From the NCBI GenBank assembly GCA_947172415.1, contig OX359190.1, positions 434,001-498,000 of the forward strand: 64,000 bases of DNA. Reading direction: 5' to 3'. Positions 1-24,516 of this stretch are shown here, one piece after another. Each line of letters starts with the position of its first letter. Position 1 is the first letter of the stretch. The notes under the pieces are model-generated. The model did no database searches, was not told where the DNA came from, and was given only the letters and a program-made list of their open reading frames with translations. This DNA is from Chondrosia reniformis (lineage: Eukaryota > Porifera > Demospongiae > Chondrillida > Chondrillidae). Position numbers and translations under genes: made by a program.

Positions 1-1730
1 TCAAATGCTCGAAACACAAAGAGAATTGCAAACTTTACTGTCACACTTGTGAAGAAATGATTTGTACTGTTTGTCGATCGATCCAGCCTCACCATTCTCA
101 TGAAGTGTCGTACATTGATGATGAGCTGGGAGAGTCGAACAAGACCACTCTGACGCAGTGCCTTTCATCCGTGAGGATTCAAAGGAAGGCAATCAGATCT
201 GCTCTCCAAGAAGTGCAGGACAGCAAAGCTAGTCTCCAACAACAATCTGAGAATGCGTTAGGAGAGATTGGTGGAATGAAGGAGCATCTGTTTGCCATGG
301 TGACAGCCCGCTGTGATGGTCTTGCTGCTAAATTGAAGGAAGCAGAAGACAAGGGAAGAAGAGAACTTGAGAGACGCGAGAGAGAATTGAAGGTCAGTCT
401 GAAGAAGCTTGATGCATTCCATTGCCTGTCAGAAGATATGAGCTTGAATGGAACAACAGAAGAGCAGTTATCAGTGACCAAGAAGATTGTCAGTCGCATG
501 TCATCTCTCAGCAGCAGTATCTCAATGCCAAGAGCCTCCATCCAACCTTCTGTTGGTCTGAAGAGGTATGATCAAGAAGAAGTGGAAAAATACATCTCAT
601 CACTTGGAAGCATCCATCACAGTCCCCATCCACCAAACTGCACTATGGAAGGAGTGGAAGTTAAGGATAACGTCATTACCTGCAGAAGCTTTGCAAAGAA
701 ACCTCTTCACTTGAAGGTGATGACAAGAGACGAGAGAGGCAATGAGTGCAGAGGAGGAGAGAAAGTGTTGGCTGTCCTTCGTCCTGTGACAGCAGGTGTT
801 CCTGTGTTTGGTAAAGTAGCAGACATGAGAGATGGCACATATGAGGTACAGTTTGCGAGTGTTCCATCAGAGAAGTGCCATCTGAGTGTGACTGTTGGAG
901 GACATGATGTAGCAGGCAGTCCAGTAGAGGTGAAGGTAGTTGGTGCTAGCGTAATTACTGTAGTCAAGCAGGAGTTCAAGCATCCATCAGGTTCTCGGTA
1001 TTTGGGTGTTGCAGTAGGTCCGGATGGTTTGCTATACTGTTCAGATGTCAGAGGACAAGTGACTATCCTAAACAGACAAGGTCAAGTTATATATAGAAGC
1101 TTTAAAGTCAAGAGTGGTGGTTGGTTGGATGGAATAGCACTAAGTAGAACAGGGAATGTGATAGTTAGTGACTTTAGTAATGGCTTCATCAGTATCTACA
1201 CAGCAGCTGGTGAATTTGTAAGGCCGTTTGGAGGAAAAGGTAAAGATCAAGTTAGTAAGCCATGTGGTGTGGCAGTTAACAAGGAGGGACATATATTTGT
1301 GGCAGAGTGTTGGGGTAATTGTGTTTCTGTGTTTACAGAAGAAGGTACATTCCTGTACAGGTTTGGTCACAAGGGTAAAGGTGAAGGAGAGTTTAATTGC
1401 CCAAGTTACATTCTCATAACACCTGATGATTTGGTGTATGTCACAGATGGTAATAATGGTCGCATTCAAGTGTTTCAGCAGAATGGTCAGTTTATTAGGC
1501 AGTTTGGTAATGGCATTGTTAAAAATCCACAAGGTATAGCAGTCACAAGTGATGGACATATAGTTGTCGCTTCATATAGTGCTAATAAGCTCAGCATCTT
1601 CACACAAGATGGACAGTGTGTCCATGAAGTGACTGATATTAGATTGAATGGTCCTTGTGGTGTAGCAGTTGGTAGTGATGGACTCATTTATATAGCTGAT
1701 CGTAATAACAGAAGAGTAGTAGTACTTTGA
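1..1730 (+). CDS. TRIM-NHL protein, cassette 1 (5' end outside window)
   Basis: The frame is open from base 3 to the stop at 1730. It enters inside the second B-box (CSKHKENCKLYCHTC), so the RING and first B-box lie upstream. A coiled coil follows, then a filamin-type Ig repeat (about 690-935), then an NHL beta-propeller of about six blades to the C terminus. Family knowledge: TRIM-NHL proteins are cytoplasmic E3 ligases or RNA-binding regulators, and the NHL domain is the target-recognition module. This copy has one extra codon in the second blade (QVIYRSF, where other copies have QVIRSF). Substrate is unknown. The visible part has no intron. Confidence 0.9.
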   Translation, partial: KCSKHKENCKLYCHTCEEMICTVCRSIQPHHSHEVSYIDDELGESNKTTLTQCLSSVRIQRKAIRSALQEVQDSKASLQQQSENALGEIGGMKEHLFAMVTARCDGLAAKLKEAEDKGRRELERRERELKVSLKKLDAFHCLSEDMSLNGTTEEQLSVTKKIVSRMSSLSSSISMPRASIQPSVGLKRYDQEEVEKYISSLGSIHHSPHPPNCTMEGVEVKDNVITCRSFAKKPLHLKVMTRDERGNECRGGEKVLAVLRPVTAGVPVFGKVADMRDGTYEVQFASVPSEKCHLSVTVGGHDVAGSPVEVKVVGASVITVVKQEFKHPSGSRYLGVAVGPDGLLYCSDVRGQVTILNRQGQVIYRSFKVKSGGWLDGIALSRTGNVIVSDFSNGFISIYTAAGEFVRPFGGKGKDQVSKPCGVAVNKEGHIFVAECWGNCVSVFTEEGTFLYRFGHKGKGEGEFNCPSYILITPDDLVYVTDGNNGRIQVFQQNGQFIRQFGNGIVKNPQGIAVTSDGHIVVASYSANKLSIFTQDGQCVHEVTDIRLNGPCGVAVGSDGLIYIADRNNRRVVVL

Positions 1731-2002
1731 GAACTTTTAGATTGAACAAGTTTGTCAACTGTGAACATTTATTCAAATTAAAGAATTTATTTAATAAATT
1801 TATTTAAAAAATTATAATTGAGAAGTAATTACAGTTTATTTCGCTATAAAGTAATAATAAATTCTATCAAATGATGATTTCAAATTTGAAATAGTACATT
1901 AACATATTCAATGTACAGTACAGAGCTGTACTATAGAAATTCCCAAACAAATAACAAATAAATTGAGATACCTGCCATACATACATTTCTACATGAAATA
2001 AA

Positions 2003-3655
2003 ATGGCGGCCATTGGAAGTGGTTCTAATCCAGTGTCAATCCTCAACACCTTCTACCCGAAGCTCCCGTACGTGTTTAGGGATCCGATTGGTCCGCCTCA
2101 CAATCGCGTCTTCTTCTGCTCCGTCACCGTGGAGGAGAGGGTCTACAGCGGTCACGGGTCCAGCAAAAAGGCGGCGAAACAAGCGGCCGCTCAAGAAGCT
2201 TTGAAGGAACTACACAACATGAGACTACGTCTGAGTTACGGATCACAATGTAAGCGCCCCTGGTCCTTCATGTCAAATAGAAGCGTTTATATAGAAATTC
2301 CATTATTTGCCCATTATTTACTGACAAATAAGTAATTGTGCAATTCTCTTCAATCTATGTCTTGTGAATGTTTGGTTTTGCAGTTTCTATAACAACCTAA
2401 TACTCTCATCTCTCATGTCTGTAAGTGCCCCTAGTCCTTCATGTTTAGAAAGCAGCATTTGTAAAGAAATTACACTAAAAGCCTTTGTCCATTTAACAAC
2501 TGCAAAATAGTAATAATTGCTTGTCTCTGTAATAATTGTAATATATTGTTTCACTTTTTGTCAAAAGTCACTCATTTGCTGGTCAATATTGTACTCTTTG
2601 AGAACGTTCTATTCCCTCAGTGAATATGTTGTGAATATTTGGTTGTACCGTTTCCATGACAACCATAAAATCTGTCATCTCTGATGTCTGTAGGTACTGC
2701 TGATGATGTGTTGAGTGAAAATTTTGTGGAGAACGAGACAGAAAGGTCTACTCTAAGAGTGGAGGAAGAGGAGGGAGAGAGAGAGGAGGAGAGAGAGAGG
2801 GAGGAGGAGGGGCAGGAGGAGGAATCTGATGAGTCAGCAGCCAAGAGAGTACGTACTGGACCTCTGCCCACATCGGCCATGCCCACTCATCCAGTGTCCA
2901 TTTTAATGGAGTCCTTTCCCACTACAGAGTTTACAGAAAAGTCCCAAAAAGGTCCTTCTCACAAGCCGACATTTGAGTACAGTGTCAAAGTGCAGGGTTG
3001 GGAGTTCACTGGAAGCGGAGGAAACAAGAAAGATGCCAAATTAAGTGCTGCTCAGAATGCGCTCGAGTTTCTTGCTCGTCAAGGTTACCTCAGACACAAG
3101 CCCCACCTCCTGAGAGCCATTGGAGTGCCTGAGCTCGGTGAGGTTGCCAGGCAACCACTGCAGGATGCTGCTATGAATGACATGACCATTTCCAAGATTA
3201 ATAACTTTATCACAAAGACTGCATTCCGTCTCTCCGAAGAGGTTCAGTGTGGACAACCCAAAGTGACTGCTGCTCTAATTATGCTGCAGACAGAAGTGTC
3301 TCCGGGGCAACCTCTAGTAGCCTCACTCAGCCCCCTGGGGGCGGGAGATCAGATCATTGCCATAGCAACGGGTACAAAGTGCATCAGTGGAATACATCTC
3401 AGCGAGGGAGGTTATGCACTGAATGATTGTCACGCTGAGGTTGTGGTTCGAAGAGCCTTTATGCACTTCATGTATCACCAGTTGGAACTGCACAAGGAGA
3501 ACAAGGGAGGACAGAGCATTCTAGAAAAACTGGAAAATGGCAAATTTAGTGTCCGCAGAGGTATCACCTTTCACCTCTACATCTCCACCTCTCCCTGTGG
3601 GGATGGGAGGGTGTTTTCCCCCAATGAAGAGGTGTGTACATTTTTAACAGCCTAA
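2003..3655 (+). pseudogene. Truncated ADAR, cassette 1 (two dsRBDs, partial deaminase)
   Basis: Exon 1 is 2003-2249 (ATG GCG GCC start, first dsRNA-binding domain) and ends at AT|gtaag. Exon 2 starts at 2694 after ctgtag and joins in frame. It holds an acidic linker, a second dsRBD (about 2885-3080) and the N-terminal half of the adenosine deaminase domain, including the DCHAEVV zinc/catalytic motif and SPCGDGRVFSP. Soon after PCG the sequence leaves ADAR and enters the ACBD5 leader, with a stop at 3655. The third zinc-ligand cysteine (SCSDK in the intact copy) is missing, so it cannot be an active deaminase. Both dsRBDs are open, so an RNA-binding product remains possible. Confidence 0.85.
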
Positions 3656-3659
3656 CAAA

Positions 3660-5091
3660 ATGGCTACCGTACGAGTAGCAGAAACAGGTGCAAATATTAA
3701 AGAAAAATTCAAAAAGGCAGTTTCAGTCATCAAATCTCTTCCTCAAAAAGGTGAGTTATCATTGAGAGGTAACGTGTATGGGACGCATATTGTTACAGAA
3801 GCGCTGTCCTTTCGCAGGTCCGTTTCAGCCGTCCAATGAAGTTAAGCTGAAGGCAAGTCTTGTCAAAGTGTACTTTGAGATAACATGACGTCACTATATC
3901 ACAAACTAACTAATATTCAGTTATTCCAATATTGCAATATTATCACAGTGTATTGGTAGATACTTGTGGAAACTGGAGTCACTAGTCGCTGTAATAACAC
4001 AGTACAGACCAGCTACTGCCGACTTATCGAATGTTTCACGTTTTCTATAGTTTTATGCGTTATACAAACAGGCCACAATGGGTCCCTGTGACACAAGTTG
4101 TCCCTCCATCTTTGACTATGTTGGGAGGGCCAAGTGGCAGGCGTGGAACATGGCAAAGGAGCTGAGCAAGGAGCAGGCGATGCAGCAGTACATTGATGAA
4201 CTGGGGAAGGTCGGACTGGCCCATGTCACATGACAATCACATGACTTTAGCTTGCTACTGTAGATAGTGGAGACAATGCCTCAGTCAAATGAGGTTTTGC
4301 AGTTTCTTCAAATTATTGGACCATTTTATGAAGAAGTCAGTGAAGAGGCGGAGTCTAAGGGCGTGTCCAAAGAGCAGTCTACTACAGAGGAGATCCCTGT
4401 TAATAAAGAAGAGGCAGAGTCTGACACAGGAGAAGATGAAGAAGACTATTACGATTCCTTTGATGTACGTGACTTGGAGACTGAAGTTGAACGTTCTGAA
4501 GTCATTAGACCCAAAATTGCTAAAGTAGGACCAGATATTGAACAACTGCAGAGGACAGTGGATCGACTGCATGGTGACATTCAAGCAATCCTACGTCAAC
4601 TAAACACTTTAGAAGACCAGCCTAAAATGCACTTAACTTCAGTGAGTCTTGCACAGCTAGACCTGTCAATATGGTAACACTAGTGAGTCTTGCACCGCCA
4701 GACCTGTCAATATGGTGTTGTACAGTCACTAGTGAGTGACTATGTACAGTGCAATATCTAAAGCTTTGGATGAGACTTGACCAAGTTCTCCTCTCCCTTC
4801 CCCTGTAGGGTGGGGTTGACATTATTCTCCTCTCCCTTCCCCTGTAGGGTGGGGTTGACATTATTCTCCTCTCCCTTCCCCTGTAGGGTGGGGTTGACAT
4901 TATTCTCCTCTCCCTTCCCCTGTAGGGTGGGGTTGACACTATTCTCCTGTAGGGACAGTGGAGCTGAATGGTGTGTTCCATTCATCAATGTACCTTGGAG
5001 GACATTGCTTATTATGCTTGTTATCCTGTGGCCATTTTTAATTAACTTTATACTCAAACTGCTGGATTATGGAAGAAGGCGGAGTCTATAA
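3660..5091 (+). CDS. ACBD5-like: ACBD4/5-like acyl-CoA-binding protein, cassette 1 (tail frame broken)
   Basis: Five exons are inferred: 3660-3750, 3818-3852, 4051-4209, 4264-4641 and a last exon ending at 5091. Exons 1-3 encode the acyl-CoA-binding domain (KEKFKKAVSVIKSLP; FYALYKQATMGPCD; AKWQAWN). Exon 4 opens with IVETMPQSNEVLQFLQIIGPFYE-like sequence typical of ACBD4/5. It continues with an acidic stretch, a FFAT-like YYDSFD and a short coiled coil. The last exon encodes a hydrophobic segment followed by GRRRSL, the tail-anchor layout of ACBD5, a peroxisomal ER-tether. Intron 2 uses a GC donor (AAG|gcaagt). Here the last acceptor lies 1 nt rather than 9 nt before the conserved GAC, so joining exon 4 to the tail exon shifts frame. 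Tail loss is likely. Confidence 0.75.
4641..4725 (+). repeat. Duplicated 5' splice-site segment (41-bp period), cassette 1
   Basis: The sequence around the exon 4 donor (tcagtgagtcttgcac) is repeated 41 bp downstream, so there are two good GT donors. Use of the second donor, or intron retention, would add VSLAQ.DLSIW and a stop. The same duplication is present in cassettes 2 (three copies), 3 and 4. Confidence 0.8.
4788..4955 (+). repeat. 39-bp splice-acceptor minisatellite, cassette 1
   Basis: Acceptor AGs fall at 4808, 4847, 4886, 4925 and 4952. Each unit is a C/T-rich tract ending in cccctgtag followed by ggtggggttgac, which makes it a full 3' splice site. The last interval is only 27 bp because of deletion, and 8 nt are also missing after the last AG. 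In phase, each upstream acceptor reads GGVDIILLSLPL and then stops at the TAG of the next acceptor. Confidence 0.9.
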
Positions 5092-5411
5092 GCCCTTCCC
5101 AAATTACATATATACAAGTTTATTTTCATAGATGTCTCTCCATTGAAGGTATTATTTAAGGAATTAAGTAGAACATAGAGATAGTTATCAGTATTTTCAT
5201 GTACAAATTTTAATAATTATACAAGTTATATCTTCGAATTCTTTATTTATTTATTTATTCAAATGTGTGTAATAAAATCGATCTATAGATTGCTACATAA
5301 ACCATAAAGTACCAAAGTAGTAACAACTGAACTGATTACTAAAATTAGACAAACAACAGACAGATAGAATAAACATTTACCAAATACAGCAACTATAGGC
5401 GAGGTCTGCAA
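5092..5411. other. Spacer ACBD5 to TRIM, cassette 1/2 (likely TRIM promoter)
   Basis: AT-rich and without an ORF of note. It contains a short (TTTA)n tract near 5241-5260 and a well-conserved last 130 bp (aaccataaagtacc through gcgaggtctgcaa) that precedes every TRIM start codon. Conservation and position suggest the TRIM promoter and 5' leader. No TATA box was assigned. Confidence 0.5.
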
Positions 5412-7595
5412 ATGGCGGAGCTTCCAGCGGTCTCACCCCTTCAGTCCAGCGAGCTTAGTCTCTCTTGTGTCGGTTGCGGAGAGAAAGTAGAAGAGTTGAA
5501 ATGTCTACCGTGTCTCCACTCGTTAGCTTTGTGCGAGAAGGTAGAATGTCGAGAGAAGATTCTCCATCGCAGCGTCTCCTGCAAGATTTGCGAGGAAGTG
5601 TTCTCCTTGTCTCTCAAGGATCTTTCTGACCATCCATTCGCTCTGAGGAAGGCTTTGAACAACCAGTACAGGAAGGAAGGCGTCATCTGTCAGGAGGAAC
5701 ACGAAGAAGAGAGATCGGCCGTAAGTTTCTGCTCGACTTGCGATGTGTTCATTTGCCAGGAATGCGTCGATCATCATAAAACGCGTAAATTCTTAAAGAA
5801 ACACGAAATGAAACCTTTGCAAAAAGTGTTTGAGCAAGGCGTTAGGAAAGAGAATTTGTTCAAATGCTCGAAACACAAAGAGAATTGCAAACTTTACTGT
5901 CACACTTGTGAAGAAATGATTTGTACTGTTTGTCGATCGATCCAGCCTCACCATTCTCATGAAGTGTCGTACATTGACGATGAGCTGGGAAAGTCGAACA
6001 AGACCACTCTGACGCAGTGCCTTTCATCCGTGAGGACTCAAAGGAAGGCAATCAGATCTGCTCTTCAAGAAGTGCAGGGCAGCAAAGCTAGTCTCCAACA
6101 GCAGTCTGAGAATGCGTTAGGAGAGATTGGTGGAATGAAGGAGCATCTGTTTGCCATGGTGACAGCCCTCTGTGATGGTCTTGCTGGTGAAGTGAGGGAA
6201 GCAGAAGACAAGGGAAGAAGAGAACTTGAGAGACGCGAGAGAGAATTGAAGGTCAGTCTGAAGAAGCTTGATGCATTCCATGGCCTGTCAGAAGATATAA
6301 GTTTGAATGGAACAACAGAAGAGCAGTTATCAGTGACAAAGAAGATTGTCAGTCGCATGTCATCTCTCAGCAGCAGTATCTCAATGCCAAGAGCCTCCAT
6401 CCAACCTTCTGTTGGTCTGAAGAGCTGTGAGTGAGAAGAAGTGGAAAAGTACATCTCATCACTTGGAAGCATCCATCACAGTCCCCATCCACCAAACTGC
6501 ACCATGGAAGGAATGGAAATGAAGGATAACGTTATTACCTGCAGAAGCTTTGCCAAGAAACGTCTTTACTTGAAGGTGATGACAAGAGACGAGAGAGGCA
6601 ATGAGTGCAGAGGAGGAGAGAAAGTGTTGGCTGTCCTTCGTCCCGTGACAGCAGGTGTTCCTGTGTTTGGTAAAGTAGCAGACATGAGAGATGGCACATA
6701 TGAGGTGCAGTTTGCGAGTGTTCCATCAGAGAAGTGCCATCTGAGTGTGACTGTTGGAGGACATGATGTAGCAGGCAGTCCAGTAGAGGTGAAGGTAGTT
6801 GGTGGTAGCGTAATTACTGCAGTCAAGCAGGAGTTCAAGCATCCATCAGGTTCTCAGTATTTGGGTGTTGTAGTAGGTCCGGATGGTTTGCTATACTGTT
6901 CAGATAAGAGTGGACAAGTGACTATCCTAAACAGACAAGGTCAAGTTATAAGAAGCTTCAAAGTCAAGGATGGTGGTTCATGTTTGTATGGAATAGCACT
7001 AAGTAGAACAGGGAATGTGATAGTTAGTGACCATTTTAATGGCTACATCAGTATCTACACAGCAGCTGGTGAATTTGTAAGGCAGTTTGGAGGAAAAGGT
7101 AAAGATCAAGGTCAACTTAGTAAGCCATGTGGTTTGACAGTTAACAAGGAGGGACATATATTTATGGCAGAGAGGGGAGGTCACTGTGTTTCTGTGTTTA
7201 CAGAAGAAGGTACATTCCTGTACAGGTTTGGTCACAAGGGTAAAGCTGAAGGAGAGTTTAATCACCCTCGTTACATACTCATAACACCTGATGATTTGGT
7301 GTATGTCATAGATACAGAAAATAATCGTATTCAAGTGTTTCAGCAGAATGGTCAGTTTATTAGGCAGTTTGGTAATGGCATTGTGAATTATCCACGAGGT
7401 ATAGCAGTCACAAGTGATGGACATATAGTGGTAGCTTCATATGGTGCTAATAAGCTCAGCATCTTCACACAAGATGGACAGTGTGTCCATGAAGTGACTG
7501 ATATTGGATTGAATGGTCCTCGTGGTGTAGCAGTTGATAGTGATGGACTCATTTGCATAGCAGATCTCGATAACAGAAGAGTAGTAGTACTTTGA
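5412..7595 (+). pseudogene. TRIM-NHL, cassette 2, with in-frame TGA
   Basis: The frame matches the 726-residue paralogues throughout: RING-like zinc module, two B-boxes, coiled coil, filamin repeat and NHL blades. A single TGA lies at 6432-6434, where the other copies have gatcga or gatcaa; here the bases are gagtga. It falls between the coiled coil and the filamin repeat. The protein would end after about 340 residues, leaving RING/B-box/coiled-coil without NHL. The downstream frame (6441-7595) is otherwise intact, so the stop is recent, or it could be read through, or it yields a NHL-less isoform. Blades 1-2 match cassette 3. Confidence 0.85.
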
Positions 7596-9575: not shown

Positions 9576-9639
9576 ATAATATAGCTAAAGCTTTGGAGAC
9601 AGAAATAGAGAATACATTCTTTTTTCCACTTGACCAAGT

Positions 9640-10178
9640 GTCTCCCCTCCCTTCCCCTGTAGGGTGGGGTTGACATTATTCTCCTCTCCCTTCCCCTGTA
9701 GGGTGGGGTTGACATTATTCTCCTCTCCCTTCCCCTGTAGGGTGGGGTTGACATTATTCTCCTCTCCCTTCCCCTGTAGGGTGGGGTTGACATTATTCTC
9801 CTCTCCCTTCCCCTGTAGGGTGGGGTTGACATTATTCTCCTCTCCCTTCCCCTGTAGGGTGGGGTTGACATTATTCTCCTCTCCCTTCCCCTGTAGGGTG
9901 GGGTTGACATTATTCTCCTCTCCCTTCCCCTGTAGGGTGGGGTTGACATTATTCTCCTCTCCCTTCCCCTGTAGGGTGGGGTTGACATTATTCTCCTCTC
10001 CCTTCCCCTGTAGGGTGGGGTTGACATTATTCTCCTTTCCCTTCCCCTGTAGGGTGGGGTTGACATTATTCTCCTCTCCCTTCCCCTGTAGGGTGGGGTT
10101 GACATTATTCTCCCCTCCCTTCCCCTGTAGGGTGGGGTTGACATTATTCTCCTCTCCCTTCCCCTGTAGGGTGCGGTT
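9640..10178 (+). repeat. 39-bp splice-acceptor minisatellite, 14 acceptors, cassette 2
   Basis: AG dinucleotides of the acceptors run from 9662 to 10169, exactly 13 periods of 39 bp, giving 14 almost identical 3' splice sites. Only the last opens the true tail exon. It is the longest of the four arrays and the most homogeneous, which points to recent expansion. Confidence 0.95.
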
Positions 10179-10310
10179 GACAGTGGATCTGAATGGTGTG
10201 TTCCATTCATCAAAGTACCTTGGAGGACATTCGTGCTTGTTATACTGTGGCCATTTTTAATTAGCTTTATACTCAAACTGCTGGGTTATGGAAGAAGGCG
10301 GAATCTATAA

Positions 10311-10673: not shown

Positions 10674-12854
10674 ATGGCGGAGCTTCCAGCGGTTCCACCC
10701 CTTCAGTCCAGCGAGCTTAGTCTCTCTTGTGTCGGTTGCGGAGAGAAAGTAGAAGAGTTGAAATGTCTACCGTGTCTCCACTCGTTAGCTTTGTGCGAGA
10801 AGGTAGAATGTCGAGAGAAGATTCTCCATCGCAGCGTCTCCTGCCAGATTTGCGAGGAAGTGTTCTCCTTGTCTCTCAAGGATCTTTCTGACCATCCGTT
10901 CGCTCTGAGGAAGGCTTTGAGCAACCAGTACCGGAAGGAAGGCGTCATCTGTCAGGAGGAACACGAAGAAGAGAGATCGGCCCTAAGTTTCTGCTCGACT
11001 TGCGATGCGTTTATTTGCCAGGAATGCGTCGATCTTCATAAAATACGAAACTTCTTCAAGAAACACGAAATGAAGCCGTTGCAAGGAGTGTTTGAAGGCG
11101 GTAAGAAAGAGGATTTGTTCAAATGCTCGAAACACAAAGAGAATTGCAAACTTTACTGTCACACTTGTGAAGAAATGATTTGTACTGTTTGTCGATCGAT
11201 ACAGCCTCACCATTCTCATGAAGTGTCGTACATTGATGATGAGCTGGGAGAGTTGAACAAGACCACTCTGACGCAGTGCCTTTCATCCGTGAGGACTCAA
11301 AGGAAGGCAATCAGATCTGCTCTCCAAGAAGTGCAGGACAGCAAAGCTAGTCTCCAACAGCAGTCTGAGAATGCGTTAGGAGAGATTGGTGGAATGAAGG
11401 AACATCTGTTTGCCATGGTGACAGCCCGCTGTGATGGTCTTGCTGCTAAATTGAAGGAAGCAGAAGACAAGGGAAGAAGAGAACTTGAGAGACGCGAGAG
11501 AGAATTGAAGGTCAGTCTGAAGAAGCTTGATGCATTCCATTGCCTGTCAGAAGATATGAGTTTGAATGGAACAACAGAAGAGCAGTTATCAGTGACAAAG
11601 AAGATTGTCAGTCGCATGTCATCTCTCAGCAGTAGTATCTCAATGCCAAGAGCCTCCATCCAACCTTCTGTTAGTCTGAAGAGCTGTGATCGAGAAGAAG
11701 TGGAAAAGTACATCTCATCACTTGGAAGCATCCATCACAGTCCCCATCCACCAAACTGCACTATGGAAGGAGTGGAAGTGAATGATAACGTCATTACCTG
11801 CAGAATGAGACCTTGGATAAAGAAACCTCTTCGCTTGAAGGTGAAGACAAGAGACGAGAGAGGCAATGAGTGCAGAGGAGGAGAGAAAGTGTTGGCCGTC
11901 CTTCGTCCTGTGACAGCAGGTGTTCCTGTGTTTGGTAAAGTAGCAGACATGAGAGATGGCACATATGAGGTGCAGTTTACGAGTGTTCCATCAGAGAAGT
12001 GCCATCTGAGTGTGACTGTTGGAGGACATGATGTAGCAGGCAGTCCAGTAGAGGTGAAGGTAGTTGGTGGTAGCGTAATTACTGCAGTCAAGCAGGAGTT
12101 CAATCATCCATCGGGTTCTTGGTATTTGGATGTTGTAGTAGGTCCGGATGGTTTGCTATACTGTTCAGATAAGAGTGGACAAGTGACTATCCTAAACAGA
12201 CAAGGTCAAGTTATAAGAAGCTTCAAAGTCAAGGATGGTGGTTCATGTTTGTATGGAATAGCACTAAGTAGAACAGGGAATGTGATAGTTAGTGACCATT
12301 TTAATGGCTACATCAGTATCTACACAGCAGCTGGTGAATTTGTAAGGCAGTTTGGAGGAATAGGTAAAGATCAAGGTCAACTTAGTGGACCATGTGGTGT
12401 GGCAGTTAACAAGGAGGGACATATATTTGTGGCAGAGTGTTGGGGTCATTGTGTTTCTGTGTTTACAGAAGAAGGTACATTCCTGTACAGGTTTGGTCAC
12501 GAGGGTAAAGCTGAAGGAGAGTTTAATTACCCAACTTACATTCTCATAACACCTGATGATTTGGTGCATGTCAGAGATAGAAGAAGTGATCGCATTCAAG
12601 TGTTTCAGCAGAATGGTCAGTTTATTAGGCAGTTTGGTAATGGCATTGTGAAGGTTCCACAAGGTATAGCAGTCACAAGTGATGGACATATAGTGGTAGC
12701 TTCAGTTGGTGCTAATAAGCTCAGCATCTTCACACAAGATGGACAGCGTGTCCATGAAGTGACTGATATTGGATTGAATGGTCCTTTTGGTGTAGCAGTT
12801 GATAGTGATGGACTCATTTACATAGCAGATCGTAATAGAGTAGTAGTACTTTGA
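10674..12854 (+). CDS. TRIM-NHL protein, cassette 3 (intact, 726 aa)
   Basis: Intronless and open from ATGGCGGAGC. It has a RING-like zinc module (CVGC, CLPCLHSLALC, CQIC) in which the gap between the fifth and sixth ligands is longer than usual, then B-box 1 and B-box 2, a coiled coil, a filamin-type repeat (about residues 370-462) and NHL blades to the last residue. Family role: probable E3 ligase or RNA-regulatory protein in the cytoplasm. The filamin region has a replaced patch (MRPWIKKPLRLKVK). Its first blades are like cassette 2 (DKSG, DHFNG) and the third like cassette 1 (AECWG), so it looks mosaic. The last blade is one codon pair shorter (ADRNRVVVL). Confidence 0.92.
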   Translation: MAELPAVPPLQSSELSLSCVGCGEKVEELKCLPCLHSLALCEKVECREKILHRSVSCQICEEVFSLSLKDLSDHPFALRKALSNQYRKEGVICQEEHEEERSALSFCSTCDAFICQECVDLHKIRNFFKKHEMKPLQGVFEGGKKEDLFKCSKHKENCKLYCHTCEEMICTVCRSIQPHHSHEVSYIDDELGELNKTTLTQCLSSVRTQRKAIRSALQEVQDSKASLQQQSENALGEIGGMKEHLFAMVTARCDGLAAKLKEAEDKGRRELERRERELKVSLKKLDAFHCLSEDMSLNGTTEEQLSVTKKIVSRMSSLSSSISMPRASIQPSVSLKSCDREEVEKYISSLGSIHHSPHPPNCTMEGVEVNDNVITCRMRPWIKKPLRLKVKTRDERGNECRGGEKVLAVLRPVTAGVPVFGKVADMRDGTYEVQFTSVPSEKCHLSVTVGGHDVAGSPVEVKVVGGSVITAVKQEFNHPSGSWYLDVVVGPDGLLYCSDKSGQVTILNRQGQVIRSFKVKDGGSCLYGIALSRTGNVIVSDHFNGYISIYTAAGEFVRQFGGIGKDQGQLSGPCGVAVNKEGHIFVAECWGHCVSVFTEEGTFLYRFGHEGKAEGEFNYPTYILITPDDLVHVRDRRSDRIQVFQQNGQFIRQFGNGIVKVPQGIAVTSDGHIVVASVGANKLSIFTQDGQRVHEVTDIGLNGPFGVAVDSDGLIYIADRNRVVVL

Positions 12855-15137: not shown

Positions 15138-16144
15138 TTTTATGCGTTATACAAACAGGCCACAATGGGTCCCTGTGACACAAGTTGTCCCTCCATCTTT
15201 GACTATGTTGGGAGGGCCAAGTGGCAGGCGTGGAACATGGCAAAGGAGCTGAGCAAGGAGCAGGCGATGCAGCAGTACATTGATGAACTGGGGAAGGTCA
15301 GACTGGCCCATGTCACATGACAATCACATGACTTTAGCTTGCTACTGTAGATAGTGGAGACAATGCCTCAGTCAAATGAGGTTTTGCAGTTTCTTCAAAT
15401 TATTGGACCATTTTATGAAGAAGTCAGTGAAGAGGGGGGCGGAGTCTAAGGGCGTGTCCAAAGAGCAATCTACTACAGAGGAGATCCCTGTTAATAAAGA
15501 AGAGGCGGAGTCTGACACAGGAGAAGATGAAGAAGACTATTATGATTCCTTTGATGTACGTGACTTGGAGACTGAAGTTGAACGTTCTGAAGTCATTAGA
15601 CCTAAAATTGCTAAAGGAGGACCAGATATTGAACAACTGCAGAAGACAGTGGATCGACTGCATGGTGACATTCAAGCAATCCTACGTCAACTAAACACTT
15701 TAGAAGACCAGCTTAAAATGCACTTAACTTCAGTGAGTCTTGCACAGCCAGACCTGTCAATATGGTAACACTAGTGAGTCTTGCACAGCCAGACCTGTCA
15801 ATATAGTAACACTAACTACATTATAATATACTGTTGTACATTCGAGTGAACTAGTTGAGTGACTTTGTACAGTGCAAAATCTAAAGCTTTGGATAGACTA
15901 TAAAGAATATCGACATATATTCTTTTTTCCACTTGACATTATTCTCCTCTCCCTTCCCCTGTAGGGTGGAGTTGACATTATTCTCCTCTCCCTTCCCCTG
16001 TAGGGTGGGGTTGACAGTGGATCTGAATGGTGTGTTCCATTCATCAATGTACCTTGGAGGACATTCGTGCTTGTTATACTGTGGCCATTTTTAATTAGCT
16101 TTATACTCAAACTGCTGGGTTATGGAAGAAGGCGGAATCTATAA
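15138..16144 (+). pseudogene. ACBD5-like: ACBD5-like remnant, cassette 3 (exons 3-5)
   Basis: Exons are 15138-15296, 15351-15732 and 16004-16144. Exon 3 is an intact acyl-CoA-binding core (YKQATMGPCD, AKWQAWN, EQAMQQYIDEL). Exon 4 has one extra G in a run (gaggggggcgg), which shifts frame after about 25 codons. The rest of exon 4 is open in the shifted frame. The tail exon with its hydrophobic anchor is intact. Exons 1 and 2 are missing. A pseudogene unless the G-run is a sequencing error. Confidence 0.8.
15940..16010 (+). repeat. 39-bp splice-acceptor minisatellite, 2 acceptors, cassette 3
   Basis: Acceptor AGs fall at 15964 and 16003, one 39-bp period apart. This is the shortest of the four arrays and close to the presumed ancestral state. 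Confidence 0.85.
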
Positions 16145-16481: not shown

Positions 16482-18641
16482 ATGGCGGAGCTTCCAGCGG
16501 TCCCACCCCTTCTGCAGTCCAGCGAGCTTAGTCTCTCTTGTGTCGGTTGCGGAGAGAAAGTAGAAGAGTTGAAATGTCTACCGTGTCTCCACTCGTTAGC
16601 TTTGTGCGAGAAGGTAGAATGTCGAGAGAAGATTCTCCATCGCAGCATCTCCTGCAAGATTTGCGAGGAAGTGTTCTCCTTGTCTCTCAAGGATCTTTCT
16701 GACCATCCGTTCGCTCTGAGGAAGGCTTTGAGCAACCAGTACCGGAAGGAAGGCGTCATCTGTCAAGGGGAACACGAAGAAGAGAGATCGGCCGTAAGTT
16801 TCTGCTCGACTTGCGATGCGTTCATTTGCCAGGAATGCGTCGATGAACACAAATCTCACAAGTTCCTTAAAAAACACGAATTAAAGCCGTTGCTAGGAGT
16901 GTTTGAGCAAGGCGGTAAGAAAGAGGATTTGTTCAAATGCTCGAAACACAAAGAGAATTGCAAACTTTACTGTCACACTTGTGAAGAAATGGTTTGTCTC
17001 GTATGTTCCACTGTCGAACCGCATCGTTCCCACAAAGTGTCGTACGTTGACGATAAACTGGGAGATTCCAACAAGACCACTCTGACGCAGTGCCTTTCAT
17101 CCGTGAGGACTCAAAGGAAGGCAATCAGATCTGCTCTCCAAGAAGTGCAGGACAGCAAAGCTAGTCTCCAACAGCAGTCTGAGAATGCGTTAGGAGAGAT
17201 TGGTGGAATGAAGGAGCATCTGTTTGCCATGGTGACAGCCCGCTGTGATGGTCTTGCTGCTAAAGTGAGGGAAGCAGAAGACAAGGGAAGAAGAGAACTT
17301 GAGAGATGCGAGAAAGAATTGAAGGTCAGTCTGAAGAAGCTTGATGCATTCCATTGTCTGTCAGAAGAGATGAGTTTAAATGGAACAACAGAAGAGCAGT
17401 TATCAGTGACAAAGAAGATTGTCAGTCGCATGTCATCTCTCAGCAGCAGTATCTCAATGCCAAGAGCCTTCATCCAACCTTCTGTTGGTCTGAAGAGCTG
17501 TGATCGAGAAGAAGTGGAAAAGTACATCTCATCACTTGGAAGCATCCATCACAGTCCCCATCCACCAAACTGCAACATCATTACCTGCAGAAGCTTTTCC
17601 AAGAAACCTCCTTTGCAGTTGAAGGTGATGACAAGAGATGAGAGAGGCAATGAGTGCAGAGGAGGAGAGAAAGTTTTGGCTGTCCTTCGTCCTGTGACAG
17701 CAGGTGTTCCTGTGTTTGGTAAAGTAGCAGACATGAGAGATGGCACATATGAGGTGCAGTTTGCGAGTGTTCCATCAGAGAAGTGCCATCTGAGTGTGAC
17801 TGTTGGAGGACATGATGTAGCAGGCAGTCCAGTAGAGGTGAAGATAGTTGGTGGTAGCGTAATTACTGCAGTCAAGCAGGAGTTCAAGCATCCATCAGGT
17901 TCTCGGTATTTGGGTGTTGCAGTAGGTCCGGATGGTTTGCTATACTGTTCAGATGTCAGAGGACAAGTGACTATCCTAAACAGACAAGGTCAAGTTATAA
18001 GAAGCTTTAAAGTCAAAAGTGGTGGTTCGTTGGGTGGAATAGCACTAAATAGAACAGGGAATGTGATAGTTAGTGACTTTGATAATGGCTACATCAGTAT
18101 CTACACAGCAGCTGGTGAATTTGTAAGGCAGTTTGGAGGAAAAGGTAAATATCAAGGTCAACTTAGTAATCCATGTGGTTTGGCAGTTAACAAGGAGGGA
18201 CATATATTTGTGGCCGAGTATGGAAGTAATCGTGTTTCTGTGTTTACAGAAGAAGGTACATTCCTGTACAGGTTTGGTCACTTGGGTGAAGTTGAAGGAG
18301 AGTTTTATTACCCTCGTTATATTCTCATAACACCTGATGATTTGGTGTATGTCACAGATGGTAATAATCATTGCATTCAAGTGTTTCAGCAGAATGGTCA
18401 GTTTATTAGGCAGTTTGGTAATGGCATTGTGAAGGATCCACGAGGTATAGCAGTCACAAGTGATGGACATATAGTGGTAGCTTCATATGGTGCTAATAAG
18501 CTCAACATCTTCACACAAGATGGACAGTGTGTCCATGAAGTGACTGATATTGGATTGAATTGTCCTCGTGGTGTAGCAGTTGATAGTGATGGACTCATTT
18601 GCATAGCAGATGGTAATAACTTTAGAGTAGTAGTACTTTGA
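16482..18641 (+). CDS. TRIM-NHL protein, cassette 4 (intact, 719 aa, divergent B-box 2)
   Basis: Intronless and open. Same architecture as the other copies: RING-like, B-box 1, B-box 2, coiled coil, filamin repeat, NHL. Three departures are visible. B-box 1 ends CVDEHKSHKFLKKHELKPL. The second half of B-box 2 (16990-17070) reads MVCLVCSTVEPHRSHKVSYV where the other copies have MICTVCRSIQPHHSHEVSYI. About eleven residues before the filamin repeat are deleted (NCNIITCRSFSKKPP). The zinc ligands are kept in all changed blocks. The sharp edges of the B-box block suggest gene conversion from a paralogue outside this window. Confidence 0.92.
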   Translation: MAELPAVPPLLQSSELSLSCVGCGEKVEELKCLPCLHSLALCEKVECREKILHRSISCKICEEVFSLSLKDLSDHPFALRKALSNQYRKEGVICQGEHEEERSAVSFCSTCDAFICQECVDEHKSHKFLKKHELKPLLGVFEQGGKKEDLFKCSKHKENCKLYCHTCEEMVCLVCSTVEPHRSHKVSYVDDKLGDSNKTTLTQCLSSVRTQRKAIRSALQEVQDSKASLQQQSENALGEIGGMKEHLFAMVTARCDGLAAKVREAEDKGRRELERCEKELKVSLKKLDAFHCLSEEMSLNGTTEEQLSVTKKIVSRMSSLSSSISMPRAFIQPSVGLKSCDREEVEKYISSLGSIHHSPHPPNCNIITCRSFSKKPPLQLKVMTRDERGNECRGGEKVLAVLRPVTAGVPVFGKVADMRDGTYEVQFASVPSEKCHLSVTVGGHDVAGSPVEVKIVGGSVITAVKQEFKHPSGSRYLGVAVGPDGLLYCSDVRGQVTILNRQGQVIRSFKVKSGGSLGGIALNRTGNVIVSDFDNGYISIYTAAGEFVRQFGGKGKYQGQLSNPCGLAVNKEGHIFVAEYGSNRVSVFTEEGTFLYRFGHLGEVEGEFYYPRYILITPDDLVYVTDGNNHCIQVFQQNGQFIRQFGNGIVKDPRGIAVTSDGHIVVASYGANKLNIFTQDGQCVHEVTDIGLNCPRGVAVDSDGLICIADGNNFRVVVL

Positions 18642-18901: not shown

Positions 18902-20636
18902 ATGGCGGCCATTGGAAGTGGTTCTAATCCAGTGTCAATCCTCAACACCTTCTACCCGAAGCTCCCGTACGTGTTTAGGGATCCGATTGGTCCGCCTCAC
19001 AATCGCGTCTTCTTCTGCTCCGTTACCGTGGAGGAGAGGGTCTACAGCGGTCACGGGTCCAGCAAAAAGGCGGCGAAACAAGCGGCCGCTCAAGAAGCTT
19101 TGAAGGAACTACACAACATGAGACTGCGTCTGAGTTACGGATCACAATGTAAGCGCCCCTGGTCCTTCATGTCAGATAGAAGCGTTTATATAGAAATTAC
19201 ATTATTTGCCCATTATTTACTGACAAATAAGTAATCATGCAATTCTCTTCAATCTATGTCTTGTGAATGTTTGGTTTTGCAGTTTCTATGACAACCAAAT
19301 ACTCTCATCTCTCATGTCTGTAAGTGCCCCTAGTCCTTCATGTTTAGAAAGAAATTACACTAAAAGCCTTTGTCCATTTAACAACTGCAAAGTAGTAATA
19401 ATTGCTTGTCTCTGTAATAATTGTAATATATTGTTTCACTTTTTGTCAAAAGTCACTCATTTGCTGGTCAATATTGTACTCTTTGAGAACGTTCTATTCC
19501 CTCAGTGAATATGTTGTGAATGTTTGGTTGTACCGTTTCCATGACAACCATAAAATCTGTCATCTCTCATGTCTGTAGGTACTGCTGATGATGTGTTGAG
19601 TGAAAATTTTGTGGAGAACGAGACAGAAAGGTCTACTCTAAGAGTGGAGGAGGAGGGAGAGAGGGAGGAGGAGAGAGAAGGGCAGGAGGAGGAATCTGAT
19701 GAGTCAGCAGCCAAGAGAACATGTACTGGACCTCCGCCCACATTGGCCACGCCCACTCATCCAGTGTCCATTTTAATGGAGTCCTTTCCCACTACAGAGT
19801 TTACAGAAAAGTCCCAAAAGGGCTCACAAGCCGACATTTGAGTCAGTGTCAAAGTGCAGGGTTGGGAGTTCACTGGAAGCGGAGGAAACAAGAAAGATGC
19901 CAAATTAAGTGCTGCTCAGAATGTGCTGGAGTTTCTTGCTCGTCAAGGCTACCTCAGACACAAGCCCCACCTCCTGAGAGCCATTGGAGTGCCTGAGCTC
20001 GGTGAGGTTGCCAGGCAACCACTGCAGGATGCTGCTATGAATGACATGACCATTTCCAAGATTAATAACTTTATCACCAAGACTGCATTCCGTCTCTCCG
20101 AAGAGGTTCAGTGTGGACAACCCAAAGTGACTGCTGCTCTAATTATGCTGCAGACAGAAGTGTCTCCATGGCAACCTCTAGTAGCCTCACTCAGCCCCCT
20201 GGGGGCGGGAGATCAGATCATTGCCATAGCAACGGGTACAAAGTGCATCAGTGGAATACATCTCAATGAGGGAGGTTATGCACTGAATGATTGTCACGCT
20301 GAGGTTGTGGTTCGAAGAGCCTTTATGCACTTCATATACCACCAGTTGGAACTGCACAAGGAACACAAGGGAGGACAGAGCATTCTAGAAAAACTGGAAA
20401 ATGGCAAATTTAGTGTCCGCAGAGGTATCACCTTTCACCTCTACATCTCCACCTCTCCCTGTGGGGATGGGAGGGTGTTTTCCCCCAATGAAGAGGCGGC
20501 CCATGCCCCGGACCAGCACCCCGGGAGGGCCAATGAAGAGATGTGTACATTTCTAACAAAATGGCTACGAGCAGCAGAAACAGGTGCAAATAGTAAAGAA
20601 AAATTCAAAAAGGCAGTTTCAGTCGTCCTCAAAAAG
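18902..20636 (+). pseudogene. Truncated ADAR, cassette 4, fused in frame to ACBD5 exon 1
   Basis: Exon 1 is 18902-19148; exon 2 starts at 19579. Two nearby indels around 19817-19845 leave a short out-of-frame patch with a TGA (KGSQADI stop) inside the second dsRBD, after which the normal frame resumes. The deaminase runs through HAE and PCG to HPGRA, then crosses at about 20522 into ACBD5 leader sequence. The ADAR frame then continues in phase into ACBD5 exon 1 (TGANSKEKFKKAVSVV) up to a donor at 20637. The third zinc ligand is missing. It is the least trimmed ADAR/ACBD5 junction in the array and probably the ancestral one. Confidence 0.8.
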
Positions 20637-21982
20637 GTAAGTTGTCAGTAAGTTGTAAGTGAGTTATCATTGAGAGGTAACGTATATGGAACGCGTATTG
20701 TTACAGAAGTGCTGTCCTTCTGCAGGTCCGTTTCAGCCGTCCAATGAAGTTAAGCTGAAGGCGAGTCTTGTCAAAGTGTACTTTGAGATAACATGACGTC
20801 ACTATATCACAAACTAACTAATATTCAGTTATTCCAATATTGCAATTTTATCACAGTGTATTGTTGGATACTTGTGGAAACTGAGGTCACTAGTTGCTGT
20901 AATAACACAGTACAGACCAGCTACTGCTGACTTATCAAATGTTTCACGTTTTCTGTAGTTTTATGCGTTATACAAACAGTCCACAATGGGTCCCTGTGAC
21001 ACAAGTTGTCCCTCCATCTTTGACTATGTTGGGAGGGCCAAGTGGCAGGCATGGAACATGGCAAAGGAGCTGAGCAAGGAGCAGGCGATGCAGCAGTACA
21101 TTGATGAACTGGGGAAGGTCAGACTGGCCCATGTCACATGACAATCACATGACTTTAGCTTGCTACCATAGATAGTGGAGACAATGCCTCAGTCAAATGA
21201 GGTTTTGCAGTTTCTTCAAATTATTGGACCATTTTATGAAGAAGTCAGTGAAGAGGGGGCGGAGTCTAAGGGCGTATCCAAAGAGCAATCTACTACAGAG
21301 GAGATCCCTGTTAATAAAGAAGAGGTGGAGTCTGACACAGGAGAAGATGAAGAAGACTATTACGATTCCTTTGATGTACGTGACTTGGAGACTGAAGTTG
21401 AACGTTCTGAAGTCATTAGACCCAAAATTGCTAAAGTAGGACCAGATGTTGAACAACTGCAGAGGACAGTGGATCGACTGCATGGTGACATTCAAGCAAT
21501 CCTACGTCAACTAAACACTTTAGAAGACCAGCTTAAAATGCACCTAACTTCAGTGAGTCTTGCACAGCCAGACCTGTCAATATGGTAACACTAGTGAGTC
21601 TTGCACAGCCAGACCTGTCAATATGGTAACACTTGTTATAATATAGCTAAAGCTTTGGAGACAGAAATAGAGAATACATTCTCTTTTCCACATGACCAAG
21701 TGTCTCCTCTCCCTTCCCCTGTAGGGTGGGATTGACATTATTCTCCTCTCCCTTCCCCTGTAGGGTGGGATTGACATTATTCTCCTCTCCCTTCCCCTGT
21801 AGGGTGGGATTGACATTATTCTCCTCTCCCTTCCCCTGTAGGGTGGGGTTGACAGTGGAGCTGAATGGTGTGTTCCATTCATCAATGTACCTTGGAGGAC
21901 ATTCGTGCTTGTTATACTGTGGCCATTTTTAATTAGCTTTATACTCAAACTGCTGGGTTATGGAAGAAGGCGGAATCTATAA
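20561..21982 (+). pseudogene. ACBD5-like: ACBD5-like gene, cassette 4 (exon 1 damaged, exons 2-5 intact)
   Basis: Exons are about 20561-20636, 20726-20760, 20959-21117, 21172-21552 and 21842-21982. In exon 1 the frame from ATGGCTACG hits TAG because bases are missing relative to cassette 1. A further 10-nt loss before the donor changes the exit phase, so exon 1 no longer fits exon 2. Exons 2 to 5 are clean: acyl-CoA-binding core, acidic FFAT-like stretch (EDEEDYYDSFDV), coiled coil and tail anchor (WPFLISFILKLL, then GRRRNL). The donor of exon 2 is again GC (gcgagt). A start in exon 3 would lose half of the binding domain. Confidence 0.75.
21695..21850 (+). repeat. 39-bp splice-acceptor minisatellite, 4 acceptors, cassette 4
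   Basis: Acceptor AGs fall from 21724 to 21841, three periods of 39 bp. Units carry a private change (gtgggattgac) that is shared along the array except in the last unit, which shows local homogenisation. Confidence 0.9.
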
Positions 21983-22144
21983 GCCCTTCCCAAATTACAT
22001 ATGTACAAGTTTATTTTCATAGATGTCTCTCCATTAAACACTTCTCTCCATTGAATGTATTATTTAAGGAATTAAGTAGAACATAGAGATAGTTATCAGT
22101 ATTTTGATGTACAAATTTTAGTAATTATACTACAAGTCAATTCT

Positions 22145-22179
<35 letters not shown>

Positions 22180-22335
22180 TTCAAATGTGTGTAATAAAAT
22201 CGATCTATAGATTTTTTGCTACATAAACCATAAAGTACCAAAATAGTAACAACTGAACTGATTACTAAAATTAGACAAACAACAGACAGATAGAATAAAC
22301 ATTTACCAAATAAAGCAACTAGGCGAGGTCTGCAA
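21983..22335. other. Spacer ACBD5 to TRIM, cassette 4/5
   Basis: AT-rich, no gene. The (TTTA)n microsatellite at about 22146-22182 is the longest of the family. The conserved pre-TRIM block follows. Confidence 0.5.
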
Positions 22336-24516
22336 ATGGCGGAGCTTCCAGCGGTCCCACTCATTCAGTCCAGCGAGCTTAGTCTCTCTTGTGTCGGTTG
22401 CGGAGAGAAAGTAGACGAGTTGAAATGTCTACCGTGTCTCCATTCGTTAGCTTTGTGCGAGAAGGTAGAATGTCGAGAGAAGATTCTCCATCGCAGCGTC
22501 TCCTGCAAGATTTGCGAGGAAGTGTTCTCCTTGTCTCTCAAGGATCTTTCTGATCATCCGTTCGCTCTGAGGAAGGCTTTGAGCAACCAGTACCGGAAGA
22601 AAGGCGTCATCTGTCAGGAGGAACACGAAGAAGAGAGATCGGCCGTAAGTTTCTGCTCGACTTGCGATGCGTTCATTTGCCAGGAATGCGTCGATCTTCA
22701 TAAAATACGAAAATTCTTCAAGAAACACGAAATGAAGCCGTTGCAAGGAGTGTTTGAGCAAGGAGGTAAGAAAGAGGATTTGTTCAAATGCTCGAAACAC
22801 AAAGAGAATTGCAAACTTTACTGTCACACTTGTGAAGAAATGATTTGTACTGTTTGTCGATCGATCCAGCCTCACCATTCTCATGAAGTGTCGTACATTG
22901 ACGATAAGCTGGGAGAGTCCAACAAGACCACTCTGACGCAGTGCCTTTCATCCGTGAGGACTCAAAGGAAGGCAATCAGATCTGCTCTCCAAGAAGTGCA
23001 GGACAGCAAAGCTAGTCTCCAACAACAATCTGAGAATGCGTTAGGAGAGATTGGTGGAATGAAGGAGCATCTGTTTGCCATGGTGACAGCCCGCTGTGAT
23101 GGTCTTGCTGCTGAAGTGAGGGAAGCAGAAGACAAGGGAAGAAGAGAACTTGAGAGACGCGAGAGAGAATTGAAGGTCAGTCTGAAGAAGCTTGATGCAT
23201 TCCATTGCCTGTCAGAAGATATGAGTTTGAATGGAACAACAGAAGAGCAGTTATCAGTGACAAAGAAGATTGTCAGTCGCATGTCATCTCTCAGCAGCAG
23301 TATCTCAATGCCAAGAGCCTCCATCCAACCTTCTGTTGGTCTGAAGAGCTGTGATCAAGAAGAAGTGGAAAAGTACATCTCATCACTTGGAAGCATCCAT
23401 CACAGTCCCCATCCACCAAACTGCACTATGGAAGGAGTGGAAGTTAAGGATATCGTCATTACCTGCAGAAGCTTTGCAAAGAAACCTCTTCACTTGAAGG
23501 TGATGACAAGAGACGAGAGAGGCAATGAGTGCAGAGGAGGAGAGAAAGTGTTGGCTGTCCTTCGTCCTGTGACAGCAGGTGTTCCTGTGTTTGGTAAAGT
23601 AGCAGACATGAGAGATGGCACATATGAGGTGCAGTTTGCGAGTGTTCCATCAGAGAAGTGCCATCTGAGTGTGACTGTTGGAGGACATGATGTAGCAGGC
23701 AGTCCAGTAGAGGTGAAAGTAGTTGGTGTTAGCGTAATTGCTGCAGTCAAGCAGGAGTTCGAGCATCCATCAGGTTCTCAGTATTTGGGTGTTGCAGTAG
23801 GTCCGGATGGTTTGCTATACTGTTCAGATAACAATGGACAAGTGACTATCCTAAACAGACAAGGTCAAGTTATAAGAAGCTTCAAAGTCAAGAATGGTGG
23901 TTCATTGTATGGAATAGCACTAAATAGAACAGGGAATGTGATAGTTAGTGACTATAGTAATGGCTACATCAGTATCTACACAGCAGCCGGTGAATTTGTA
24001 AGGCAGTTTGGAGGAGAAGGTAAAGATCAAGGTCAACTTAGTTATCCATGTGGTTTGGCAGTTAACAAGGAGGGACATATATTTGTGGCAGAGTATGGAA
24101 GTCATTGTGTTTCTGTGTTTACAGAAGAAGGTACATTCCTGTACAGGTTTGGTGACTGGGGTGAAGCTGAAGGAGAGTTTTATTACCCAAATTACATTCT
24201 CATAACACCTGATGATTTGGTGTATGTTACAGATGGTAATAATCATCGCATTCAAGTGTTTCAGCAGAATGGTCAGTTTATTAGGCAGTTTGGTAATGGC
24301 ATTGTGAAGGATCCAGATGGTATAGCAGTCACAAGTGATGGACATATAGTGGTCGCTTCACAGAGTGCTAATAAGCTCAGCATCTTCACACAAGATGGAC
24401 AGTGTGTCCATGAAGTGACTGATATTGGATTGAATCATCCTTGTAGTGTAGCAGTTGATAGTGATGGACTCATTTACATAGCAGATTGTAATAACAGTAG
24501 AGTAGTAGTACTTTGA
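22336..24516 (+). CDS. TRIM-NHL protein, cassette 5 (intact, 726 aa)
   Basis: Intronless. RING-like module with C19, C22, C34, H36, C41, C46, C57, C60 as likely zinc ligands; B-box 1 with C93, H97, C107, C110, C115, C118, H122, H131; B-box 2 with C152, H155, C163, C166, C171, C174, H180, H183. A coiled coil spans about residues 195-330, a filamin-type repeat about 370-462, and NHL blades about 470-726. Family role: TRIM-NHL proteins ubiquitinate targets or bind RNA, with NHL giving specificity. Blade loops are private to this copy (DNNG, DYSNG, YPCG, DWGE, DPDG, SQSAN, NHPCS, DCNNS), while blade cores equal the paralogues. It lies 310 bp upstream of the only complete ADAR. Confidence 0.93.
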   Translation: MAELPAVPLIQSSELSLSCVGCGEKVDELKCLPCLHSLALCEKVECREKILHRSVSCKICEEVFSLSLKDLSDHPFALRKALSNQYRKKGVICQEEHEEERSAVSFCSTCDAFICQECVDLHKIRKFFKKHEMKPLQGVFEQGGKKEDLFKCSKHKENCKLYCHTCEEMICTVCRSIQPHHSHEVSYIDDKLGESNKTTLTQCLSSVRTQRKAIRSALQEVQDSKASLQQQSENALGEIGGMKEHLFAMVTARCDGLAAEVREAEDKGRRELERRERELKVSLKKLDAFHCLSEDMSLNGTTEEQLSVTKKIVSRMSSLSSSISMPRASIQPSVGLKSCDQEEVEKYISSLGSIHHSPHPPNCTMEGVEVKDIVITCRSFAKKPLHLKVMTRDERGNECRGGEKVLAVLRPVTAGVPVFGKVADMRDGTYEVQFASVPSEKCHLSVTVGGHDVAGSPVEVKVVGVSVIAAVKQEFEHPSGSQYLGVAVGPDGLLYCSDNNGQVTILNRQGQVIRSFKVKNGGSLYGIALNRTGNVIVSDYSNGYISIYTAAGEFVRQFGGEGKDQGQLSYPCGLAVNKEGHIFVAEYGSHCVSVFTEEGTFLYRFGDWGEAEGEFYYPNYILITPDDLVYVTDGNNHRIQVFQQNGQFIRQFGNGIVKDPDGIAVTSDGHIVVASQSANKLSIFTQDGQCVHEVTDIGLNHPCSVAVDSDGLIYIADCNNSRVVVL

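Follow-up and report, generated by a model that had tools for sequence, protein, structure and literature searches.

Diversifying selection on a predicted propeller face in a tandem TRIM-NHL family of the sponge Chondrosia reniformis

Introduction

Three described systems are the closest to the genes that we discuss here. The finTRIM genes of teleosts are a large duplicated TRIM family with recombination, and their positively selected sites are clustered in the loops of the C-terminal ligand domain, which is a B30.2 domain (excerpts of PMC2657112). The NWD/HNWD proteins of Podospora, which are of the NLR type, have a hypervariable beta-propeller in which selection acts at four positions of each WD repeat on the interaction face, and they exchange sequence with their paralogs; the repeats are near-identical, are shuffled, and vary in number (excerpts of PMC4986451). 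Finally, there are the NHL propellers of LIN41/TRIM71 and Brat. In LIN41, the residues that contact RNA are mostly identical between species, and one kind of stem-loop is bound (excerpts of PMC5908797). Here we describe a family of TRIM-NHL genes in the sponge Chondrosia reniformis, five of which lie in the 64,000-nucleotide stretch of chromosome 2 that we analyzed (C2:434001-498000, or "the window").

To our knowledge, the immune and allorecognition receptors of sponges are poorly known. Also, in the titles and abstract openings of the open-licence literature, we found no report on hypervariable NHL faces or on an expansion of TRIM-NHL genes in sponges among the matches listed. We find strong support for diversifying selection on a small set of NHL residues and, from a structural model, strong support for their location on one face of the propeller.

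Results

The TRIM-NHL family

The window genes are members of the TRIM-NHL protein family: Pfam identifies two B-boxes, a filamin domain, and NHL repeats, with a six-bladed NHL propeller at the C terminus. The zf-B_box profile exceeded its cut-off in two stretches each of copies 3, 4, and 5 and of the copy 2 portion that precedes its stop codon. (Copy 1 was scanned as it lies in the window, without its 5' part.) At E ≤ 0.001, the Pfam scan gave no match to B30.2/SPRY, NACHT, or NB-ARC domains. The N terminus looks like a divergent RING, with a match below the Pfam cut-off. C19, C22, C34, H36, C41, and C46, which are possible zinc ligands, are invariant in all 32-33 sequences that span them; C57 and C60 are invariant in four window copies.

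All five genes are on the forward strand. Copy 1 occupies positions 1..1730 of the window (NHL at 930-1727), copy 2 is at 5412..7595 (NHL at 6795-7592), copy 3 is at 10674..12854 (NHL at 12054-12851), copy 4 is at 16482..18641 (NHL at 17841-18638), and copy 5 is at 22336..24516 (NHL at 23716-24513). The frames of copies 3, 4, and 5 are intact and encode 726, 719, and 726 amino acids; residues are numbered by copy 3. A preliminary description of this DNA counted five tandem copies, which stands for the NHL domains, but copy 1 begins 448 bases before the window (at C2:433553) and the frame of copy 2 is interrupted by a TGA at 6432-6434; copy 2 may therefore be a pseudogene.

We searched the genome (117,379,552 bases in 15 contigs, which are 14 chromosomes and the mitochondrion) with the protein sequence of copy 3 and obtained 63 rows, corresponding to at least 62 related loci (62 of 249 candidates were scored). 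At least 34 TRIM-NHL genes form a tandem cluster at C2:180,057-458,510, whose right-hand end is made up of the window genes. An open frame of at least 720 codons, with no internal stop, contains the match in 58 of the 62 loci. We extracted 46 segments: two of these have an internal stop (one each) and one locus on C14 is divided between two frames. The main alignment contains the 37 close copies. The others are six paralogs of less than 80% identity, C14_2161705 (50%), and the pieces C14_1117860 and C5_5116154. The partial copy C2_2335143 was retained for the 37-copy analyses (entropy by region, Nei-Gojobori or NG86 estimates, and third-position counts) and was excluded from the tests with 36 genes.

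Position of the variable residues

Mean entropy in the 37-copy alignment was 0.23 bits at residues 1-460 and 0.40 bits in the NHL domain, where only certain positions rise above 1.5-2 bits. To number the blades, we counted from the residue (x1) that precedes a proline common to four of the six blades. Averaged over the six blades (36 copies), entropy was 2.30 bits at offset 0, 2.06 at +2, 2.04 at +17, and 1.94 at +18; the remaining offsets printed had mean entropies of at most 0.69 bits. We use two sets of sites: 22 hypervariable codons for the selection tests and the 23 sites with entropy above 1.5 bits for the structural analysis. The strings of hypervariable residues are rich in N, Y, G, R, S, C, F, and W, and 35 of them are distinct among the 36 genes.

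Within the window, this agrees with what had been described from the five copies. All seven series of variable motifs listed in the preliminary description are present, in the same order, in the five NHL domains, and 21 of the 22 family-wide hypervariable codons vary among them. The flanks of identical DNA, given as 20-60 nt, correspond to 11 invariant runs of 20-56 nt. Changes of two or three bases, described as frequent, account for 28 of the 59 codons that vary in amino acid. The claim that the changes are "almost all" nonsynonymous holds as a tendency: besides those 59 of the 266 NHL codons, 14 vary only silently.

We modeled the propeller of copy 5 with AlphaFold2, with the other four window copies as companion sequences (mean predicted local distance difference test score, or pLDDT, of 91.3). 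In copy 5, the 23 high-entropy codons span 23779..24492 on the forward strand (model residues 22 to 259). In the model, the b-c loops contain 11 of the 23 sites and the d-a loops contain 7, and the other 5 occupy the second position of strand a. Strands b, c, and d contain no such sites, and the 53 residues of the a-b and c-d loops also include none (P = 1.1e-7 for enrichment in the top loops, Fisher test). In beta-propellers, the d-a and b-c loops lie on one common face, and we assigned the face from the class of loop in the model. The 27 sites with omega (the ratio of nonsynonymous to synonymous rates) above 5 are distributed similarly: 11 in b-c loops, 7 in d-a loops, 7 in strand a, 2 in strand c, and 0 in bottom loops. 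Thus, we do not see the variable residues dispersed through the propeller core, as they might have been had the proposal of a single recognition surface been wrong.

The same four slots contain 13 of the 14 RNA-contact residues of LIN41 that are named in the excerpts of PMC5908797, with the register set from our own alignment. This bears out the suggestion that the variable turns line what is a ligand- or RNA-binding face in related propellers. LIN41 conserves these slots between species, whereas the sponge paralogs are diversified there. The genes lack the conserved contact residues that mark LIN41/TRIM71 orthologs, as the contact slots are the most variable positions of the family. A separate TRIM71-like gene in the same genome (TRIM71 match of 1.7e-97) keeps 11 of the 14 contact residues, as read from the alignment.

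Because these slots are also variable in a second subfamily, the pattern extends beyond one recent array. This subfamily is represented by five regions of another NHL cluster, on C9 (C9:7172504-7275298, L055-L059), that are 84-88% identical to each other and cover about four blades. Of the hypervariable columns that are covered, 12 of 14 are variable, versus 36 of 155 other columns (P = 5e-6); 6 hypervariable and 10 other columns have three or more residues (P = 5e-4).

Selection at the hypervariable codons

As recombination can mislead tree-based estimates of omega, we used tree-free counts from pairs of genes. Across 630 pairs of 36 genes, the proportion of nonsynonymous differences (pN) was 0.433 at the 22 hypervariable codons, versus a proportion of synonymous differences (pS) of 0.0526 and a pN of 0.0388 in the framework. 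The ratio of hypervariable pN to framework pS was 8.2 (6.4-10.6 by bootstrap over genes) and rose to 13.4 in the 24 closest pairs. This far exceeds the silent rate, as the earlier proposal of diversifying selection had predicted. In 10,000 random sets of 22 NHL codons, the highest pN was 0.188, versus 0.432 observed (37-copy counts). Because the 22 codons were chosen by their variability, we repeated the test with 24 slots that were fixed from the published LIN41 contacts: their pN was 0.418, versus a random maximum of 0.203 and 0.037 in the rest of the NHL domain. Choosing sites by variability is not the cause of the high pN.

We also fit a site model of our own, instead of PAML or HyPhy, with 17 classes of omega, expectation-maximization, a fixed transition/transversion rate ratio (kappa), and rescaled branch lengths from a general time-reversible model with gamma-distributed rates. 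In the NHL domain, omega ≤ 1 was rejected, with twice the log-likelihood difference (2dlnL) being 728 (658-784 across kappa of 1 to 3). With a tree built from the framework only (without the hypervariable codons), 2dlnL was 927 (848-992 across the same range), and when the domain was divided into three blocks with their own trees, it was 225, 176, and 162. The posterior probability of selection was above 0.95 for all 22 hypervariable codons with the framework-only tree and also with the three block trees. In the 28 genes of the main cluster alone, 2dlnL was 614 and 21 of the 22 codons were above 0.95. Sixteen other sites also exceeded 0.95 with the framework tree; ten of these are at most three codons from a hypervariable codon.

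Among distinct pairs of codons that are one step apart, the ratio of nonsynonymous to synonymous pairs was 191:15 at the hypervariable codons versus 240:107 in the framework. One pair of close paralogs illustrates this. Across their last 406 codons, C2_360509 and C2_310614 differ only at codons 541, 542, 543, 637, and 661; the last four are nonsynonymous changes at hypervariable sites and the change at 541, which adjoins 542, is silent.

Recombination among paralogs

The pairwise homoplasy index (PHI) indicates recombination (w = 3 and w = 10, 0 of 500 permutations each; w = 30, P = 0.014). For instance, C2_404210 and C2_315488 are identical at all eight hypervariable residues from 661 onward and differ at 6 of the 14 earlier ones. 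Across the 28 main-cluster genes, genomic distance is not correlated with the difference in hypervariable residues (rho = 0.05) or in the framework (rho = 0.07), and loops are only weakly associated with one another across genes (mean z of 0.07-0.91, depending on the distance between loops). The most economical reading is that gene conversion homogenizes the framework while selection keeps the hypervariable residues diverse. New hypervariable residues could come either from point mutation or from very short conversion tracts.

In the N-terminal part, residues 100-198 and 364-396 have a pS of 0.14-0.28 per 33 codons, versus 0.03-0.09 in other N-terminal blocks, and the copies have a few alternative sequence types there. 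This pattern suggests that modules are swapped in the B-box and filamin parts.

Neighboring elements

Genes that resemble ADAR alternate with the TRIM copies in the window (at 2684-3655, 14018-14878, 19854-20651, and 25683-27533). The gene at 25683-27533 has a double-stranded RNA-binding motif and most of an adenosine deaminase domain, and the other three match the first 49 to 110 positions of the domain only. A genome-wide search with the profile for this domain (PF02137, all 34 candidates scored) gave 19 rows, of which five, all located at C2:431-461 kb, adjoin TRIM genes; among these five, one match spans 294 of the 329 profile positions. The same search found no match beside the remaining TRIM genes, although short fragments could escape it. 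We considered and rejected the ADAR-like genes as part of a TRIM system: with no match next to the other TRIM genes, they seem to have been carried along in local duplications.

A 39-bp minisatellite of 2.2 to 13.9 units lies upstream of TRIM copies 2-5 (at 4786-4948, 9641-10182, 15933-16016, and 21703-21854), and a 30-bp tandem repeat lies upstream of two ADAR-like copies (at 13641-13924, 9.5 units, and at 25336-25589, 8.5 units). The window also contains a fragment of a reverse transcriptase domain at 53068-54081 (Pfam RVT_1, E = 1.1e-15), which is probably from a non-LTR (long terminal repeat) element.

Discussion

These genes are tandem paralogs whose positively selected residues are located together on a predicted binding face, as in a diversified receptor family. 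A role as receptors is likely, and the comparison to an immune receptor family, which was made in the preliminary description, is a fair analogy. We judge it reasonably probable that the family is a germline-encoded, intracellular repertoire for recognizing non-self, built on a TRIM-NHL scaffold with one diversified face. The conserved scaffold (two B-boxes, a filamin domain, and the six-bladed propeller) carries about 22-24 strongly diversified residues, or about four per blade; in this proposal, their face would be a putative paratope for many different ligands, such as foreign RNAs or proteins. Binding by an oligomeric TRIM might then lead to ubiquitination via the divergent RING-like N terminus, while selection and gene conversion would shape the repertoire. 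A more specific version, which we hold only tentatively, is that the repertoire is antibody-like: dozens of cytosolic receptors would each read a different RNA or protein through six fixed blades, with about four free residues per blade at the LIN41 slots, under selection and short-tract conversion.

Like the finTRIMs, this is a duplicated TRIM family with recombination and with selected sites clustered in the loops of a C-terminal domain; unlike the vertebrate finTRIMs, the domain is an NHL propeller instead of B30.2 and has the register of four sites per blade, which the finTRIMs lack in the excerpts of PMC2657112. The likeness to Podospora is in the propeller, its four positions per repeat, and the exchange among paralogs, but the sponge proteins have six distinct blades on a TRIM.

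Several observations weigh against the proposal of a recognition repertoire or limit its reach. The extracted sequences cover 43 of the 62 loci, in whole or part, and come from one haplotype of one species (the alternate haplotype assembly is GCA_947172445.1). The register is imperfect, as three slots have entropies below 1.5 bits (+2 in blade 1, +18 in blade 3, and +17 in blade 4) and the variable sites 610 and 639 fall outside the four slots. The hypervariable face has a mean net charge of only +1.4 (range −2 to +4) and is not strongly basic. At the N terminus, the match to zf-C3HC4_3 (E = 0.007-0.009, 16 bits) is below the cut-off of 27, and the structural model (pLDDT of 46.7) was too poor for searching. 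For the N-terminal 460 codons, omega ≤ 1 is rejected as well, more weakly (2dlnL of 132 and 148 in two fits, 17 sites), perhaps because recombination misleads the model. By NG86, pS at the hypervariable codons is 0.19, which is higher than in the framework (37 copies); perhaps this is mostly an artifact of averaging over multi-step codon paths. Finally, in pairs of codons of the form NNY, third positions differ by T/C in 4.3% of cases at hypervariable codons, or about twice the 1.9% of the NHL framework; the value for residues 1-460 is 5.1% (37 copies).

These third-position data bear on whether mutation alone could explain the pattern. A targeted hypermutation of these codons, whether by editing or by something like a diversity-generating retroelement (DGR), would operate without selection on the protein and would account for changes that are limited to single codons between identical flanks. 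Codon positions 1 and 2 are indeed the most variable (they differ in 45% and 48% of pairs), and ADAR-like genes adjoin the window TRIM copies. But fast mutation would make silent T/C changes common, and they are rare here and near background, so mutation alone is disfavored. Also, third positions at these codons change mainly by transversion, which alters the amino acid in two-fold codons (the transition/transversion ratio is 0.36, versus 1.10 in the framework; 37 copies). Adenosine-deaminase matches were found next to just five TRIM copies, each of them at the end of the main cluster, and about 28 kb separate the reverse transcriptase fragment from the last of the TRIM copies. The third-position evidence leads us to rule out local hypermutation or DGR-like targeting, and we consider this explanation very improbable. 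We give slightly less credence still to relaxed constraint, with the slots being free to drift. Surface positions do often drift, but omega would then be about 1, while pN at the hypervariable codons is 8 times the framework pS and omega ≤ 1 is rejected; this argument holds unless conversion homogenized the silent sites of the framework far more than those of the hypervariable codons.

Other alternatives accept selection and change its cause. Each copy might bind a different transposon or viral RNA through an upper face of the LIN41/Brat type and silence it, in an arms race with mobile elements. KRAB zinc-finger genes are in such an arms race. We think that RNA-guided silencing is unlikely, although it is the most credible of these alternatives: the weakly basic face argues against a LIN41-like grip on the RNA backbone, the best-scoring folds are those of Thin, TRIM2, and TRIM3, with no RNA in the entries listed for them, and the equivalent faces of fungal WD propellers bind protein (excerpts of PMC4986451). 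It is more doubtful that the copies or their alleles separate self from other individuals when sponges fuse, in the manner of the fungal het genes with hypervariable WD propellers. The four selected positions per propeller repeat resemble those of the Podospora WD repeats (excerpts of PMC4986451), and tandem clustering with recombination would also fit. However, a cytosolic TRIM seems an unlikely partner for recognition at the cell surface (a judgment made with no search for signal peptides or membrane segments).

If the antibody-like proposal is correct, then the family would be a convergent counterpart of the fungal WD-propeller receptors, built in an early-branching animal, and if its ligands are RNA, it would be an RNA-reading analog of the KRAB zinc-finger arrays. 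The family is a concrete candidate, open to testing, for a diversified system of intracellular recognition in sponges. It is also a natural diversification of the NHL face at the RNA-contact slots of LIN41 and, therefore, would be a ready-made library of NHL specificities.

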